Part shown: piece after piece, positions 27,891 through 59,297 of the stretch
How positions within the stretch are numbered: position 1 is the stretch's first letter
Layout of the letters: every line of letters begins with the position of its first letter
NCBI GenBank assembly: GCA_902624015.1
Contig: CACNVV010000005.1
Location: 1 to 59,297 of the forward strand
Length of the DNA stretch: 59,297 nucleotides
Direction: 5' to 3'
Source: an uncultured Pelagibacteraceae bacterium
Lineage (GTDB): Bacteria; Pseudomonadota; Alphaproteobacteria; Pelagibacterales; Pelagibacteraceae
Notes under the pieces: generated by a model
Told to the model about the DNA's origin: nothing
Database searches by the model: none
Seen by the model: the letters and a program-made list of their open reading frames with translations, nothing else
Made by a program: the position numbers and the translations under genes

Positions 27891-28013
27891 GTTAATTTGT
27901 AAGTGCGCCAATTATATCTTAAAAAAGTAAGTAAATAAGTACCTAATATGATCAATTTTTAGGGTTTTCAAAGCTCTCATAATGGTTATGGTTTCAACCA
28001 GTTATAACTAAAA

Positions 28014-28020
28014 AGAGAGG
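28014..28020 (+). promoter_or_regulatory. Strong Shine-Dalgarno before the symporter small subunit
   Basis: The purine run AGAGAGG at 28014-28020 is 5 bases before the ATG at 28026. Most genes in this window show no clear Shine-Dalgarno, so this one stands out. A similar GAGAGGAC run precedes the large-subunit start at 28286. Confidence 0.65.
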
Positions 28021-28025
28021 TATAA

Positions 28026-28286
28026 ATGTCAAATCAACAAAAACACTGGGAAAAAACCAGGGGATTGTTATTTATAACATTAGCAATCTGGTTTGTTTTC
28101 TCAATTGGCATCTTTCTCTTTGGAGCTGAAATGAACGAGGTCACAGGACCTTTCGGTTATCCGTGGACATACTGGTTTACATGTCAGGGATCTCTTGGCG
28201 CTTTCGTAATCCTAATTTTCTGGTTTGCGAATAGACAAGAAAAAATCGATGAAGAGTTCGGCTTTAGCGAAAGAGAGGACGAATAA
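28026..28286 (+). CDS. Sodium:solute symporter small subunit (DUF4212)
   Basis: Small membrane subunit that accompanies a large ActP-like sodium:solute symporter subunit. The 86 residues contain the family pattern HWEKTRGLLFITLAIWFVFSI in the first helix, FPFGYPWTYWFTCQGSL-type FGYPWTYWFTCQGS before the second helix, and an acidic tail. Its stop overlaps the next gene's ATG (TAATG at 28284-28288). A strong Shine-Dalgarno precedes it, and the codons are richer in C-ending and GGT/GCT types than neighbouring genes, suggesting high expression. Confidence 0.93.
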   Translation: MSNQQKHWEKTRGLLFITLAIWFVFSIGIFLFGAEMNEVTGPFGYPWTYWFTCQGSLGAFVILIFWFANRQEKIDEEFGFSEREDE

Positions 28287-30097
28287 TGAAAGGTAATTTC
28301 ATAGATAATTTGCCTAAAGTTTACGGGATCTATACCGGAGGATTTATAGGTTTCATAATCATTATGGCAATTGCTGAACAGATGGGTATGACAGCTAAAG
28401 CAATCGGTATTGCTTTTGTTGCTTTTACTGTATTCATCTATGCATTAATCGGTTGGCTATCAAGAACAGCCCAAGCAGATGCATATTACGTAGCTGGTAG
28501 GCAAGTACCAACAGTCTTCAACGGAATGGCGACTGCAGCAGACTGGATGTCTGGTGCTTCATTCGTTGCAATGGCGGGTGGTATTTACTTTAAAGGTTAC
28601 GGCTATATGGCTCTACTTGTAGGTTGGACTGGTGGTTACGTGCTTGTTGCATCTTTATTAGCACCATACCTAAGAAAATTTGGCTGTTATACAGTTCCAG
28701 ATTTTATAGGTACTAGATACGGTGGTAATTTAGCTAGATTTAGCGCAGTTGTAGTTTTAACTGTTGCTTCATTTACTTATGTGACTGCACAAATTAACGC
28801 TACAGGTACTATTGCATCTGTTGCACTTGATATCCCATTCCAATACGCAGTTTATGTTGGACTAATAAGTATTTTATTATGTTCAATGTTAGGTGGTATG
28901 AGAGGGGTAACTTGGACACAGGTTGCACAATATATCGTACTAATTATAGCTTACCTACTTCCAGTATTCTGGATCAGTAACAAAATGGGTGCGGGTTTCT
29001 TCCCTCACTTTATGTTAGCTGACGAGGTAGCTAGAATTGGTGAATTAGAACAACAGTTTGGTTTTGTTAAAAACGCAGCTGCTGATCTAAAATCAGTACC
29101 TAAAGGCTTAGCAGGAATAACTAAAGCTCACTCTGCAGTGAACGCTACACCTTGGGCATTTATTTCATTAGCATTAGCGATGATGATGGGAACAGCTTCA
29201 TTACCGCACGTGATGATGAGATACTTTACTACTCCAAGTGTAAAAGCAGCTAGAAAATCAGTAGGTTGGTCATTATTCTTTATCTTCCTACTTTATTCTT
29301 CTGCTCCAATGTTAGCTACATTATCTAAGTTATCATTGATCGACCCGAATTTACCAACAGGTATTATCGGTAAGACATTTGCAGAAGTGGAAGCGATAGA
29401 TTGGTACCAAAACTGGAACCAAGCAAACCTAATGTTTATCAGCGACTTTAACGGAAATGGAACTCTTGAATTAAATGAGTTCTTCATGGGTGGTAAAGCC
29501 GTTGTATTAGCAACACCAGAGATAGCTGGATTACCTTACGTAATTTCAGGTCTAGTTGCTGCAGGAGGTATGGCAGCTGCCATGTCTACTGCCGATGGTT
29601 TGATTCTAGCGATTGCAAACGCTATATCACATGATGTTTACTATAAGATCATTGATCCAAAAGCGGAAACTGCAAAACGACTACTTGTTGCAAGGGTATT
29701 ACTTGTAATAATTGGTTTTGCTGGAGCAACTATTGCAGCAATGGAGATTCAAGGAATCTTAGGTTCAGTTATCTGGGCTTTTGATTTTGCGATGTCTGGA
29801 TTGTTCTTCCCACTTGTACTTGGTGTATGGTGGAAGAGAGCTAATAGACAAGGTGCGATTGCTGGTATGCTAGGTGGTCTAATCGCCGGTGCTTGGTACT
29901 TAATTTGGGTACGAACTGGTGGAAGTGGATTCCTAGGGATTACACAGTTAACATTTGGTATCTTCGGATCAGCTGTAAGTTTAGTTTTAATGGTGGTAGT
30001 TAGTTTAATGACTGCAGAACCAGATAAAGCTACTCAAAAAATGGTTGATGACGTGCGTGTACCGAGTGGTAAATCAATTCTTGGTAAATCACACTAA
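28286..30097 (+). CDS. Sodium:solute symporter large subunit, acetate-type
   Basis: Large subunit of an SSS-family cation:solute symporter, in the clade that pairs with DUF4212 and relates to the acetate permease ActP. The 603 residues have about 13 helices, with DAYYVAGRQVPTVFNGMATAADWMSGASFVAMAG (about 66-99), TASLPHVMMRYFTTPSVKAARKSVGW, and a central GGMAAAMSTADGLILAIANAISHD. Nearby acs suggests acetate or another short carboxylate as substrate (inference). Codon use suggests strong expression, and a clear intrinsic terminator follows the stop. Confidence 0.95.
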   Translation: MKGNFIDNLPKVYGIYTGGFIGFIIIMAIAEQMGMTAKAIGIAFVAFTVFIYALIGWLSRTAQADAYYVAGRQVPTVFNGMATAADWMSGASFVAMAGGIYFKGYGYMALLVGWTGGYVLVASLLAPYLRKFGCYTVPDFIGTRYGGNLARFSAVVVLTVASFTYVTAQINATGTIASVALDIPFQYAVYVGLISILLCSMLGGMRGVTWTQVAQYIVLIIAYLLPVFWISNKMGAGFFPHFMLADEVARIGELEQQFGFVKNAAADLKSVPKGLAGITKAHSAVNATPWAFISLALAMMMGTASLPHVMMRYFTTPSVKAARKSVGWSLFFIFLLYSSAPMLATLSKLSLIDPNLPTGIIGKTFAEVEAIDWYQNWNQANLMFISDFNGNGTLELNEFFMGGKAVVLATPEIAGLPYVISGLVAAGGMAAAMSTADGLILAIANAISHDVYYKIIDPKAETAKRLLVARVLLVIIGFAGATIAAMEIQGILGSVIWAFDFAMSGLFFPLVLGVWWKRANRQGAIAGMLGGLIAGAWYLIWVRTGGSGFLGITQLTFGIFGSAVSLVLMVVVSLMTAEPDKATQKMVDDVRVPSGKSILGKSH

Positions 30098-48579: not shown

Positions 48580-49416
48580 TTATAAATATCCTAATTCTAA
48601 CATTTCCTTCTGAAATTTTTTTTCAATTTTCTGTCTATTATTTTCATCGAGTAAATTTCTCCAATCATTTTTAGGACCAAGATTAAAAAAATTTTTTCTA
48701 TTACCATTTTTATCCAATACGGCTTCAAAAAAAGTCTCTTCTTTTTCTTTGTTCTTCATTTTATCAAAATCAGTAGATTTTAAGCATTTATTCAACTTGA
48801 CCATATCTAATTTGAACTTCATGCCAATTATTTCTAGAAATTTAAAAACTCTTAACATCACAGTTTTTTTCCTAGTAATTAAATCTTCATATTTAATTAA
48901 TAAATATCTCTTTTGTTTATTGAGATTTTTCCATGATTTATAATTAAAATTCCATGATCCCAAAAAAACTTTAGATGTTTTAAGTGTTTTCTCTGTAAAT
49001 TTATCTTCATCGAGCATCGTTTCAGTTGCTTCATTTATGCTAAGATTAAAATGATGAGCTAAGGAAGAAACAACATTTCTTGGATCTCGTACAACATAAA
49101 TAGCACCCAAAGTATTTTTTAAATCTGTAAAATTACTATTATACATTCTAGATAATGAACTATGAGTTTTAAAAAATTTAACTTTACCCTGTTCGTTATT
49201 TATCAAATTTTGTGCATTAATAAAATTTTGAAAAACTTGTTCATCATTATCTATATCAACTCCTAGGGACATAAAATGATGGGTATTTGGAAACTGGGTT
49301 ATTTTATTCAGATTTTCAAATTTAAAAACTCCATCTTCTGAATAAAAATAGGATGATAGTATAGATCTTAAGAGAGTATTGCCGCTTTTAGGATATGATG
49401 CAAGCCAAATAATCAT
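48580..49416 (-). CDS. Sulfotransferase domain protein
   Basis: Stand-alone sulfotransferase, 278 residues, paralogous to the genes at 37435 and 58787. PAPS loop YPKSGNTLLRS at residues 8-18 after the shared MIIWLAS start; second binding region AIYVVRDPRNVVSSLAHHF; C-terminal FFNLGPKNDWRNLLD. Its start overlaps the stop of the smr gene by 4 bases (49413-49416), so it is translationally coupled to smr and the TIM44-like gene, an unusual partner set. It would need PAPS; acceptor unknown. Confidence 0.87.
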   Translation of the reverse strand: MIIWLASYPKSGNTLLRSILSSYFYSEDGVFKFENLNKITQFPNTHHFMSLGVDIDNDEQVFQNFINAQNLINNEQGKVKFFKTHSSLSRMYNSNFTDLKNTLGAIYVVRDPRNVVSSLAHHFNLSINEATETMLDEDKFTEKTLKTSKVFLGSWNFNYKSWKNLNKQKRYLLIKYEDLITRKKTVMLRVFKFLEIIGMKFKLDMVKLNKCLKSTDFDKMKNKEKEETFFEAVLDKNGNRKNFFNLGPKNDWRNLLDENNRQKIEKKFQKEMLELGYL

Positions 49417-53340: not shown

Positions 53341-53921
53341 AATGAACTTATGTATTCTTTAATTTTTTTAATAGGTAAACCCATAATTGTATCTTCGTCT
53401 CCCTCTATGCTAGCAAACAAATTTCTGCCTACACCCTCTATTTGGTAAACATTGTATGCATAAAGCGTTTCGTCAGGTATTTTTGATAGGTAATTTTTTA
53501 ACTCATCATCAGATAAATTTTTCATTAAAAGTTTAGCTTTATCGGTGTGATTCCAAATCATTGATCCATTTTTTGATACACAGACAGAACTAATTAAAAA
53601 ATGTGATTTACCATTGAGTTTCTTTAATATTTTCATGGCCTCTTCTCTAGTTTCCGGCTTTGATATTAATTCACCATTCAAGTCTATCACGCTGTCTGCT
53701 CCTAAAACGATTTCGTCAGTTTTTTTCATACTGACCTTGTTTGCTTTTAATTCTGCTAAATTTTTTGAGATCATTTCTGGTGTTGCTTTTTCTTTAATTA
53801 AACTCTCTTTTACTATATTCTCATCCACATTTGATGGCATAACATCACTATTGATATTATTTTTATCTAAAATTTCTTTTCTAACCTTGCTTTTTGAAGC
53901 AAGAATAATTTTATTTAGCAT
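53337..53921 (-). CDS. maf: Maf family nucleoside triphosphate pyrophosphatase
   Basis: House-cleaning pyrophosphatase acting on nucleoside triphosphates such as dTTP, UTP or modified ones. The 194 residues contain IILASKSKVRKEILDKNNI at the start, ADSVIDLNGELISKP (metal-binding Asp at about 75) and a C-terminal YQIEGVGRNLFASIEGDEDTIMGLPI, which carries the Maf GD-x2-T-x2-G-L-P motif. It overlaps ppsR by 11 bases. In other alphaproteobacteria a maf gene also lies next to the origin and opposite hemE. Confidence 0.95.
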   Translation of the reverse strand: MLNKIILASKSKVRKEILDKNNINSDVMPSNVDENIVKESLIKEKATPEMISKNLAELKANKVSMKKTDEIVLGADSVIDLNGELISKPETREEAMKILKKLNGKSHFLISSVCVSKNGSMIWNHTDKAKLLMKNLSDDELKNYLSKIPDETLYAYNVYQIEGVGRNLFASIEGDEDTIMGLPIKKIKEYISSL

Positions 53922-54738
53922 TGTTTAAATATATTTCGTGAATTTTAATTATGGAAGCAGCTGTTTCCTCAACAGACTTTCTGGTTACATCTATAAGCGG
54001 CCATTTATATTTTTGAAATGTTTTTTTTGCCTCTAAAACTTCTTTTTTAATATTTTCTAAATCTGTGTATTGAATGCTTTCTCTTTCTTTTAAAGAAGTC
54101 ATTCTATTTTTTCTTAAATCAACCAACCTTTCTGGCTCAGTGCTTAGTCCAACGACACAAGTCATTTTTGGATTTTTTTTAAGTGACTCTGGTAATGAAT
54201 TTTCATTTACCAAAGGAATATTGGAAGTTTTAAAACCTTTGTTGGCCAAATAAATAGATGTGGGTGTTTTGCTTGTTCTGCTTACTCCTACAAGTATAAT
54301 GTCTGATTTTTGTACTTCGTTTATTAAATTTCCATCATCGTGGTTCATTGTAAATTGAATTGCTTCGATTCTATCATAGTACTCTTCATTCAATATATGT
54401 TGGCCGCTTGGTTCGTGGGTTGCTTTTTGATTAAGGATTTTTGAAAAATTTAATATTAAGTTGCCAAGGACACCAAAACATGGAATTTTTTTATCTTCGC
54501 TTACTTTTGATAAATATTTAGCCAGGTTATTGTCTACAATAGTATATAAAATTATCGCATTTGAGTTTTTTTCTGCATTTTCTAAAATTTTTAAAATTTG
54601 GTTTTCTGTTCTTGTAAAAGAATAAGAGTGAATCTTATATTCTATATTTAAAAATTGAGCTTTTAGAGCTAAAAAAATTCTATCTAAGGTCTCGCCCGTT
54701 GAGTCAGAAATTAAATATATTTGATATGTATTACTCAT
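53911..54738 (-). CDS. ppsR: Pyruvate, phosphate/water dikinase regulatory protein (PpsR/PDRP)
   Basis: Bifunctional kinase/phosphorylase that switches PEP synthase or pyruvate phosphate dikinase by ADP-dependent phosphorylation and phosphate-dependent dephosphorylation. The 275 residues start IYLISDSTGETLDRIFLA and contain the P-loop-like GVSRTSKTPTSIYLANKG at about 152-169, the signatures of the DUF299 family. A PEP synthase or dikinase gene is not in this window, so the target is unseen. It is the first gene on the left of the putative origin. Confidence 0.94.
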   Translation of the reverse strand: MSNTYQIYLISDSTGETLDRIFLALKAQFLNIEYKIHSYSFTRTENQILKILENAEKNSNAIILYTIVDNNLAKYLSKVSEDKKIPCFGVLGNLILNFSKILNQKATHEPSGQHILNEEYYDRIEAIQFTMNHDDGNLINEVQKSDIILVGVSRTSKTPTSIYLANKGFKTSNIPLVNENSLPESLKKNPKMTCVVGLSTEPERLVDLRKNRMTSLKERESIQYTDLENIKKEVLEAKKTFQKYKWPLIDVTRKSVEETAASIIKIHEIYLNNAK

Positions 54739-55005
54739 GAATAAATTGTAAATAAATTTGTAATATTTTAATTAAATTACACAATTTAAAATTTTTTTAA
54801 ATTAACCTTGTAAAAACTACTATTTATTAACATTAATAATAAATGGGGAAAAACAATCCACAAAATTAATATGTTAAAAAAAGCTTCATTTTAAACAATT
54901 TTATTCACATAACATGTTGGTAAATTGTAAATATAATGTTTATAAAAATTAATCACCTTTATTCACAGGATATATTACAACTACAATAATTAATAATGCT
55001 TATTT
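54739..55005 (+). other. Probable chromosomal replication origin (oriC)
   Basis: This 267-base, non-coding, extremely AT-rich gap separates divergent gene runs: ppsR-maf-aroE-coaE-dnaQ on the left (minus) and hemE-hemH-hemJ-rho on the right (plus). It contains two exact TTATTCACA sites (54901-54909, 54959-54967), one mismatch from the DnaA consensus TTATCCACA, and a weaker CAATCCACA at 54854-54862. A 13-base direct repeat occurs at 54742 and 54921. Published work on Caulobacter and Rickettsia places the alphaproteobacterial origin beside hemE in the same gene context. GC-skew was not computed. Confidence 0.75.
54742..54933 (+). repeat. 13-base direct repeat in the putative origin
   Basis: TAAATTGTAAATA occurs at 54742-54754 and again at 54921-54933, 179 bases apart start to start, with a related TTTGTAATA at 54757-54765. 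Such repeats can be unwinding elements or protein sites, but low complexity makes chance possible. Confidence 0.5.
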
Positions 55006-56010
55006 ATGAAACCTTTAGACAAAGTAATAATTAACAAAGACACTTCGTTCAACCCCATATGGATTATGAGACAGGCTGGTAGATATTTACCAGAATTTAG
55101 AGAAATAAGGAAAGAAAATCCCAATTTTATTAAGTTGTGTTTAAATGACGATTTGTCTTCAGAAATAACTCTACAACCATTAAAAAGATTCAATCTGGAT
55201 GCTGCAATAATTTTCTCAGATATTTTGATGCTTCCATATGGATTAGGTCAAAAAGTAGAATTTGAAAAAAACTTTGGTCCAAAATTAGGAGAATTAAATC
55301 TTAATAAAATTGCTAAAATTGATGAAATTGATTTTGTAGAAAAAATACATCGCGTATACAAGGCAATAACAAAAGTTAGCTCAGATACTATTTTAAACAA
55401 TAAAAACACTATTGGATTTGTTGGTGCCCCATGGACTATATTAGTTTATATGATTAACCAACAATCGCCAAAAAAGAATTTGAAAAAAGATTTTTTTGAG
55501 GATGAATTTTTAATAAATAGAATTTTATTAATTATTGAAAAATTTTTAAAAGTTCACATAAAAAATCAAATTGATAGTGGTGCAAATATAATTCAAATTT
55601 TTGATAGTTGGGCAGGCTTATTAGAAGAAAAAGATTTACCTAATTATATTTATTCTCCTACTTTAAATTTAGTAAATTATGTAAAATCTTTAAATGTGCC
55701 AGTGATATGCTTTCCCAGAGAAATAAAAAATTATAAAGAGTTTTGTGAAATTGTTAAACCTGATGCTATTAGCATCGATTATAATGTTGATCCAAAAAAT
55801 ATTCTTAGAGATATAAAAATACCTATACAAGGTGGCCTAGACCCAAAAATTTTGTTAACAGACAAAGAAATATTAAAGAAAGAGACTTCTAAATATTTGG
55901 AAATTTTCCGAGATCATCCATATATATTTAATCTTGGTCATGGTATTATGCCTGAAACCAATCCAGAAATGGTTGAAAACTTAATTAAAATTGTAAAAGA
56001 TTTTAAATGA
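55006..56010 (+). CDS. hemE: Uroporphyrinogen decarboxylase
   Basis: Cytosolic enzyme that decarboxylates uroporphyrinogen III to coproporphyrinogen III. In 334 residues I see the signature PIWIMRQAGRYLPEFRE (about 18-34), AAIIFSDILMLPYGLGQKVEF with the catalytic Asp at about 71, GFVGAPWTILVYM, IQIFDSWAGLL, and FNLGHGIMPETNPEMV. All are intact. The gene begins at the right edge of the putative origin and overlaps hemH by 4 bases. Confidence 0.97.
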   Translation: MKPLDKVIINKDTSFNPIWIMRQAGRYLPEFREIRKENPNFIKLCLNDDLSSEITLQPLKRFNLDAAIIFSDILMLPYGLGQKVEFEKNFGPKLGELNLNKIAKIDEIDFVEKIHRVYKAITKVSSDTILNNKNTIGFVGAPWTILVYMINQQSPKKNLKKDFFEDEFLINRILLIIEKFLKVHIKNQIDSGANIIQIFDSWAGLLEEKDLPNYIYSPTLNLVNYVKSLNVPVICFPREIKNYKEFCEIVKPDAISIDYNVDPKNILRDIKIPIQGGLDPKILLTDKEILKKETSKYLEIFRDHPYIFNLGHGIMPETNPEMVENLIKIVKDFK

Positions 56011-58786: not shown

Positions 58787-59297
58787 TTATAGATAGCCAA
58801 GTTCTTTCATTTCATTGTAAAATTTACTCTCTATTTCATCAACAGTACTTTTCTGTAAAAAGTTTTTCCATTTGTTTTCTGGCCCTAGATTAAAAAATTT
58901 TCTGTTATCATGTGTAATAAATTCATTAAATCCCGACAAAGTTTCCATTCTTTTTAAATTGTTAAAAGAGTTTGATTTAATACTATTTTCTATTTTTTTA
59001 TCAGAAAAATTTTGTTTTAATATTTTTGAAAAATAATTTGAAATTTTTCTAAATTCTTCATCGGGATTTGTAAGTAAATTTTCATATTTTATAAGAAGAT
59101 AATTTTGTTTTACTTGTTTCCATGATAAATAGTGAGATTTCCACGATAATAATAAAGCAGGAAGAGGATGATCTTTTTTATCAAAATGGCCCTTAATTAT
59201 TCTTCTTTCATCAAATAAAAATTCTTTAGATTTTTCATAATCATCAATTGAATAATGATGCTTTAAAGAAGTAATCACATTTCTAGGATCTCTAACA
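58787..59297 (-). CDS. Sulfotransferase domain protein, N-terminus cut by window edge
   Basis: The C-terminal 169 codons of a fourth sulfotransferase, paralogous to those at 37435 and 48580. The frame stays open to the window end, where VRDPRNVITSLKHHY (3'-phosphate binding region) is seen; the PAPS loop would lie beyond 59297. Shared features are NYLLIKYENLLTNPDEEF, FFNLGPENKWKNFLQ and a MKELGYL end nearly identical to the MLELGYL end of the 48580 gene. It converges on rho after 11 bases. Confidence 0.86.
   Translation of the reverse strand, partial: VRDPRNVITSLKHHYSIDDYEKSKEFLFDERRIIKGHFDKKDHPLPALLLSWKSHYLSWKQVKQNYLLIKYENLLTNPDEEFRKISNYFSKILKQNFSDKKIENSIKSNSFNNLKRMETLSGFNEFITHDNRKFFNLGPENKWKNFLQKSTVDEIESKFYNEMKELGYL

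Follow-up and report, generated by a model that had tools for sequence, protein, structure and literature searches.

A short gap between ppsR and hemE as the probable chromosomal replication origin of a Pelagibacteraceae genome

Results

The genes ppsR and hemE diverge from a non-coding gap of 267 bp (54739..55005) in the window, a stretch of 59,297 nucleotides that constitutes the entire contig C5 of an incomplete Pelagibacteraceae genome (933 kb in 43 contigs, 73% complete). With 16.5% GC against 28.6% for the window, the gap is above average in AT content and has the lowest GC among the window's 10 intergenic stretches of at least 80 bp. Its left boundary is ppsR, on the minus strand at 53911..54738, which encodes a kinase/pyrophosphorylase of COG1806/DUF299 (PF03618, 6e-89; NF003742 over its cut-off), and its right boundary is hemE, on the plus strand at 55006..56010 (TIGR01464 over its cut-off). 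Pfam and NCBIfam matches place ppsR, maf, aroE, coaE, a DnaQ-type exonuclease gene and secB on the ppsR side, and hemE, hemH, a UPF0093 gene, which we take to be HemJ, and rho on the hemE side, so that the AT-rich non-coding gap between divergent runs, and the genes that a first-pass annotation of this DNA had named on its two sides (hemE; maf, ppsR and dnaQ), are both confirmed.

The arrangement is conserved among close relatives. When 121 genomes were searched for PpsR, 62 matched, all in the window's own family (62 of 73, the window's genome included) and none among the 48 genomes of a second family of the order; two of the 62 loci, cut short by the end of a contig, were left out. In each of the remaining 60 loci, which are the window and 59 of 59 others from the same genus, ppsR and hemE diverge from a gap measured at 261–306 bp, the measurement being lengthened in four loci where the tblastn match begins 2 or 8 residues inside hemE. 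A named set, formed by the best 80 of at least 565 PpsR loci (78 Pelagibacteraceae, one Ca. Pelagibacter ubique and one Pelagibacterales), has the same layout in 79 of the 80, with gaps of 266–270 bp, the exception being a 3.6-kb piece without a hemE match. Some of the named loci look identical to records of the genome set, and 135 distinct gaps were left.

DnaA boxes were scored per 280-bp stretch with a strict pattern, TTATNCACA, which is the usual consensus of the box, and a loose one, TTATNNACA. Five loose sites, two of them strict, fall within one such stretch at the gap, making it the top cluster of the window, and the contig's next best stretch has two. The number of boxes alone was dropped as evidence for an origin, as the contig's TTATNCACA count is at chance level (3 against 3.28 expected); the clustering goes beyond chance, and so does the conservation, since the 60 homologous gaps contain 190 TTATNNACA sites where dinucleotide shuffles give 21.4 ± 4.3. 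The box that faces hemE, TTATTCACA at 54959..54967 on the plus strand, is exact in 77 of 79 near relatives and matches TTATNNACA in 78, and within the 60-locus genus set the last 95 nt before hemE hold an exact TTATTCACA in 33 loci and TTATNNACA in 46. A second TTATTCACA at 54901..54909, also on the plus strand, is lineage-specific (exact in 7 of the 79 near relatives, TTATNNACA in 9), which suggests that one exact box is old and the other recent. Three further box-like sites are matched by TTATNNACA at the corresponding place in near relatives: TTATTTACA at 54747..54755 on the minus strand (58 of 79), TTATTAACA at 54824..54832 on the plus strand (74 of 79) and TTATAAACA at 54937..54945 on the minus strand (72 of 79).

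The first-pass annotation had reported two exact TTATTCACA sites, which are indeed those at 54901 and 54959; of the two, the 54959 box alone is broadly conserved, the 54901 box being a recent extra. The weaker third DnaA-like site that it mentioned is probably TTATTAACA at 54824, to which the two on the minus strand can now be added, and the absence of TTATCCACA is correct for the gap, the single copy on the contig lying inside hemH (56423). A 13-base direct repeat had likewise been described, and TAAATTGTAAATA can be read from the sequence on the plus strand at 54742..54754, where it overlaps the 54747 box, and again at 54921..54933; an automated repeat search did not list it and returned instead a 28-nt, 75% repeat around the two TTATTCACA boxes. 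Its wording that the boxes are "only near-consensus" was too strong for TTATTCACA, which fits the TTATNCACA consensus.

The hemE-facing box is followed on the plus strand by a spacer, GGAT (54968..54971, read from the sequence), and then by the triplets ATA TTA CAA CTA CAA TAA (54972..54989), an array that resembles DnaA-trios and on whose complementary strand DnaA is predicted to assemble. In a column profile of 134 of the 135 distinct gaps (one has no box by the rule used), A occupies positions 10, 13 and 16 past the box in 97%, 98% and 96% of the gaps, and C occupies positions 11, 14 and 17 in 78%, 64% and 83%, the overall C content of the gaps being 9%. At least three of four consecutive triplets are NTA in 132 of the 134 gaps, against 27.1 ± 4.4 in mononucleotide shuffles, a figure that does not amount to 134 independent cases since the gaps are related. 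The published strict rule for a Bacillus subtilis-type BUS (DnaA box, spacer, DnaA-trios) calls for a DnaA box within 16 bp of at least three N-A-N trios (PMC8287927). The window falls short of this rule, its longest N-A-N run being 2, and the rule holds in 42 of the 134 gaps against 61.6 ± 5.2 in shuffles, so that strict trios are under-represented in the genus. The trio-like designation therefore leans on column conservation and strand asymmetry. A reading with DnaA on the top strand of the C-W-A array (W-A-C units, with an invariant middle A) was set aside, as its polarity opposes the known geometry of box and trios.

For the second family, 29 loci (L093–L121) were kept from 42 HemE-positive genomes. 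Maf abuts the gap upstream of hemE (Pfam, in L093 only), and the gap measures 271–281 bp in 26 of the 29 loci, these having a resolved minus-strand neighbour ORF. The 400 bp upstream of hemE contain 0–3 TTATNNACA sites and the box that precedes the trio-like units is off consensus, which indicates that conservation of the box array stops at the genus. Directly upstream of hemE there are versions such as CACAGG..CAACTACTACTAC followed by TATATATA, and CWA runs of at least three units occur on the hemE-facing strand in 18 of the 29 loci; the opposite strand has one, and mononucleotide shuffles give 0.3. Runs of at least three that consist of a single unit are present for CTA in 5 of the 29 loci and for CAA in one. 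The core ACAACTACAA is common to the window and 11 of the 29 loci, despite a HemE identity of 36–41%.

A class-wide draw yielded a HemE match in 98 of 115 genomes, the window's own included; the eight lowest-scoring of the other 97 were left out, and the resulting set of 89 comprises the 29 best-scoring loci with their flanks and the upstream stretch of 60 more. CWA runs of at least three are found in 17 of these 89 loci on the forward, hemE-facing strand, against one on the reverse strand and 1.0 in dinucleotide shuffles; the corresponding numbers are 8, 0 and 0.2 for CAA and 3, 1 and 0.0 for CTA. By run count the arrays are thus absent from most loci of the class (72 of 89 have no CWA run of three) and face hemE where they are present. 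Looser [ACT][AT]A runs of at least six show no enrichment (3 forward, 2 reverse, 1.8 in shuffles). A combined box-plus-trio filter, which retained 23 of the 89 loci, had no control and some chance-like matches, and the CWA-run count was preferred to it.

These numbers bear on the possibility that the array is a chance periodicity of AT-rich DNA, or some other kind of site, and that melting depends on generic AT-richness, a reading that concerns the mechanism and not the oriC status of the gap. NTA triplets arise easily in DNA of this composition, and such a reading would be at ease with the failure of the strict rule in the window, its under-representation in the genus, the many class loci without a CWA run of three and the unenriched looser runs. 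It accounts poorly for the excess of NTA triplets over shuffles in the related gaps, and for the strong bias of CWA runs towards the hemE-facing strand in both the class and the second family. We regard it as unlikely, though not negligible.

The conserved elements could alternatively be mainly the promoters of ppsR and hemE, with the box coinciding in part with a –35 element and the trio-like array with a –10 element. Divergent genes need promoters in the gap, and a sigma-70-like match, TTCACA-17-AATAAT (54962–54990), does overlap the box and the array; promoter-like matches are, however, no commoner in the gap than in shuffles (3 against 5.0). Promoters would also leave unexplained the C at every third position, the CTACTACTAC versions that some second-family loci have, the excess of TTATNNACA, and the geometry of parS and dnaA described below. 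As a replacement for an origin this explanation is very unlikely; a promoter may coexist with an origin in the gap.

The wider genome context was examined in relatives. In 630 kb sampled from a relative assembled as a single contig (G012), the gap is again the top box cluster, with three loose and two strict sites, and it also ranks first in the samples of G042 and G036, the latter of which holds the gap only in part; in the samples of G027 and G046, which do not include the gap, other stretches score up to 3–4. The neighbourhoods of dnaA in 11 genomes, the window's own among them, show no box cluster (0–2 loose sites per 3–4.5 kb, and one strict site overall), and an origin beside dnaA was rejected on these grounds.

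A 16-mer parS site with at most two mismatches is present in G012 and in each of 20 other genomes (20 of 20). In 16 of 17 genomes of the same genus the best site lies on the hemE side, at a distance of 7,491–11,040 bp from ppsR; nine of these sites are exact, six have one mismatch and one has two. In five of five genomes of the second family the best site is 8.8–10.2 kb from hemE and has no mismatch; several genomes have additional parS-like sites with two mismatches elsewhere, and a backwards control pattern gave 0–2 matches per genome. A parS nearby, as expected of a chromosomal oriC, is thereby found in these relatives; the incomplete assembly to which the window belongs yielded none, and there the contig stops 4.3 kb beyond the gap.

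The position of dnaA was compared between members of the window's family (G012, G042, G036, G046 and G009) and of the second family (G073, G074, G079 and G086). In the former it is found on the hemE side, at a distance of 62.8–65.8 kb, in five of six genomes, the sixth (G027) having it on another contig; in the latter it lies on the opposite side, as judged from coordinates, at 61.5–65.7 kb in four of four genomes. Equal distances on opposite sides are what inversions symmetric about the origin are expected to produce, and the mirror-image positions of dnaA point to an inversion centred on the origin. As a separate observation, a genome of the same family and another genus (G192, a single 1.2-Mb contig rated 100% complete) has a remote HemE match (E = 1e-25), and its origin neighbourhood may differ.

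GC skew agrees coarsely with the origin call and does not pinpoint it. In G012, of which 47% was sampled, almost every sample between 0.75 and 1.235 Mb has a negative raw skew; the values are close to zero between 1.24 and 1.31 Mb and positive or mixed from there as far as 0.67 Mb. Fits place the origin at 1.23–1.24 Mb (free) or 1.305–1.315 Mb (symmetric), and the gap is at 1.262 Mb. The sign changes near the gap in G012, G036 and G046 and weakly in G027 and G042, and inside the window the cumulative skew reaches a local minimum of –1.27 at the gap, slightly above the –1.31 at 22–24 kb. Skew at four-fold sites shows no clear strand bias, which implies that raw skew mostly tracks gene orientation; being coarse (about ±50 kb) and driven in this way, it was rejected as a means of locating the origin exactly. 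An origin at another place in the region, beside dnaA or parAB/rho, with the gap as a DnaA-regulated promoter, would be compatible with this resolution and with a dnaA 61–66 kb away, but is extremely improbable given the dnaA neighbourhoods without box clusters, the change of side of dnaA between two families while the linkage of hemE and parS holds, and the first rank of the gap in the G012 sample, the sole scan to cover the surroundings of parS.

Regulators of the origin were also sought. The single-contig G012 has four Trans_reg_C proteins and the genome of the window has two; among the five that were scanned, the best score shown against a CtrA model was 133.5, with a cut-off of 350 bits, the model being of Rhodobacter type and run without a positive control, and CtrA was not among the 25 matches listed for one of the scanned proteins. 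One of the four G012 proteins is PhoB, over its cut-off. That no ctrA ortholog was found in Pelagibacter has been stated in the literature (PMC2877005). The motif TTAA-N7-TTAA occurs once in the window's gap; the 60 gaps together have 33 copies where shuffles have 16.1 ± 3.9, an excess that the TTAATAA-rich box array could cause. As the excess is modest and the CtrA protein was not found, a reading of this motif as a CtrA box was not adopted. GcrA is encoded in seven of eight genomes checked, and GANTC, the target of CcrM, is scarce: the 60 gaps have two copies in all, compared with 8.7 ± 3.1 for shuffles.

Discussion

The origins of Caulobacter crescentus (Cori) and Rickettsia prowazekii are located at the pair hemE/COG1806 (PMC1914354). 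The gap shares with the origins described there its boundary genes and their divergent transcription, its AT-rich composition and its DnaA boxes (PMC1914354), and we hold with high confidence that it is this Pelagibacteraceae genome's chromosomal oriC, a shorter counterpart, at the homologous place, of the origins of Caulobacter and Rickettsia. The first-pass annotation had proposed a probable oriC, and the proposal gains support from the conservation of gap and boxes, the top-ranking box cluster, the proximity of parS, the mirror positions of dnaA, the coarse skew, and the trio-like arrays that second-family loci and some further Alphaproteobacteria have beside hemE. It had also spoken of a reduced origin, and this fits: the gap has 267 bp, compared with 384 bp in R. 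prowazekii according to the table in PMC1914354 and with the 301–665 bp that separate hemE from a divergent ppsR in 19 of the 29 class loci with flanks (hemE starts chosen by rule), and CtrA was not found. The differences from the Caulobacter and Rickettsia origins are that the CtrA protein was not found, that most box sites have drifted to TTATNNACA, and that dnaA is 61–66 kb away in relatives. In the close relative Candidatus Pelagibacter ubique HTCC1062, oriC "has been manually identified", the passage in question giving no position (PMC4033161). The gap sits where the class would lead one to expect an origin, and its location is therefore ordinary. Less ordinary, on the hypothesis developed below, would be the combination of a shortened origin without detectable CtrA and a trio-like C-W-A array matched by a change in DnaA.

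The anatomy of the gap suggests how initiation might proceed. DnaA would bind the hemE-facing box at 54959, probably assisted by DnaA on the boxes at 54937 (minus strand), 54824 (plus strand) and 54747 (minus strand), and we infer that an oligomer would extend from there over the array at 54972–54989, on the strand complementary to that of the box. The AT-rich stretch up to the start of hemE would then melt, the helicase would load and two forks would proceed outward, and the newly copied origins would presumably be segregated via parS, which in relatives is 7.5–11 kb away on the hemE side. Such an origin would operate without repression by CtrA, none having been found.

The order of elements is that of the B. 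subtilis-type BUS, in that the window likewise has a box, a short spacer starting with GG and a period-3 array on the hemE side, and part of the second SAR11-order family even has the canonical CTA repeats. It differs from a BUS in its mixed C-W-A units (CTA and CAA), in falling outside the strict rule, and in an aromatic residue or His at the Asn187 place of DnaA; with these units and this residue, the array may work like a BUS and still not be filed as one by the strict rule. A second comparison is offered by the duplex-unwinding element of Escherichia coli, with its single-strand sites TTGT and TTATT, since CAA units give complementary TTG repeats that contain TTGT (PMC10797057). In contrast to that element as described, the units here recur every three bases right next to a DnaA box, with CTA mixed in.

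How DnaA might read such units can be considered from the B. subtilis protein, in which Asn187 contacts the middle adenine of the trio and Arg202 and Glu228 contact the guanine at the first position, and for which strand separation and initiation become slower when T or G takes the place of the middle A, C being tolerated (PMC10721633). In an alignment to the structure 8btg (PDB), Asn187 is opposite Tyr200 of the DnaA of the window's genome. The comparison was extended to 28 hand-picked genomes, of which 19 had been selected because they have trio-like arrays; one of the 28 gave only a degenerate hit. In all 27 remaining alphaproteobacterial DnaAs the equivalent of Asn187 is Tyr, Phe or His and never Asn, and the equivalents of 202 and 228 are Lys and Glu. 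There is no contrast within the class, so the link between residue and array is a correlation, class against model organism, and not a test. Alignments read by eye to two more DnaAs of solved structure show Asn in Thermotoga maritima and Gln in Aquifex aeolicus at this place, so these proteins, too, have no aromatic residue. A T in the middle position has a precedent in E. coli, where DnaA is reported to bind single-stranded TTGT (PMC10797057), which is contained in the complement of the CAA units.

We therefore advance, with slightly less than even confidence, the proposal that the Alphaproteobacteria, SAR11 included, may use an unwinding code of their own, in which the trios would be 3'-G-W-T-5' (C-W-A on the top strand) with A or T in the middle. 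The change would have come with the replacement of an Asn187-type reader by Tyr or Phe (Tyr200 here), the basic and acidic pair at the contacts to the first G (the Lys202 and Glu228 equivalents) being kept. If such a class-specific code exists, trio searches that demand a middle A could miss or under-score these origins, and the C-W-A pattern together with the altered DnaA residue would offer a concrete test of how single-stranded origin DNA is read and of class differences in the code. As far as the location is concerned, growth estimates for SAR11 that are based on coverage (origin-to-terminus ratios) need an exact origin, for which the conserved oriC is a candidate. A hemE-type origin where CtrA was not found would also show what stays once that repressor is gone.

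Two other features of the window may be mentioned. The GC content rises locally to 39.6% at 28001–30000, in a contig of 28.6% GC, and an ORF on the minus strand at 58787–59278 resembles the C-terminal half of another minus-strand ORF at 48580–49416, which starts with a YPKSGNT motif of sulfotransferase-like appearance, as judged by eye.
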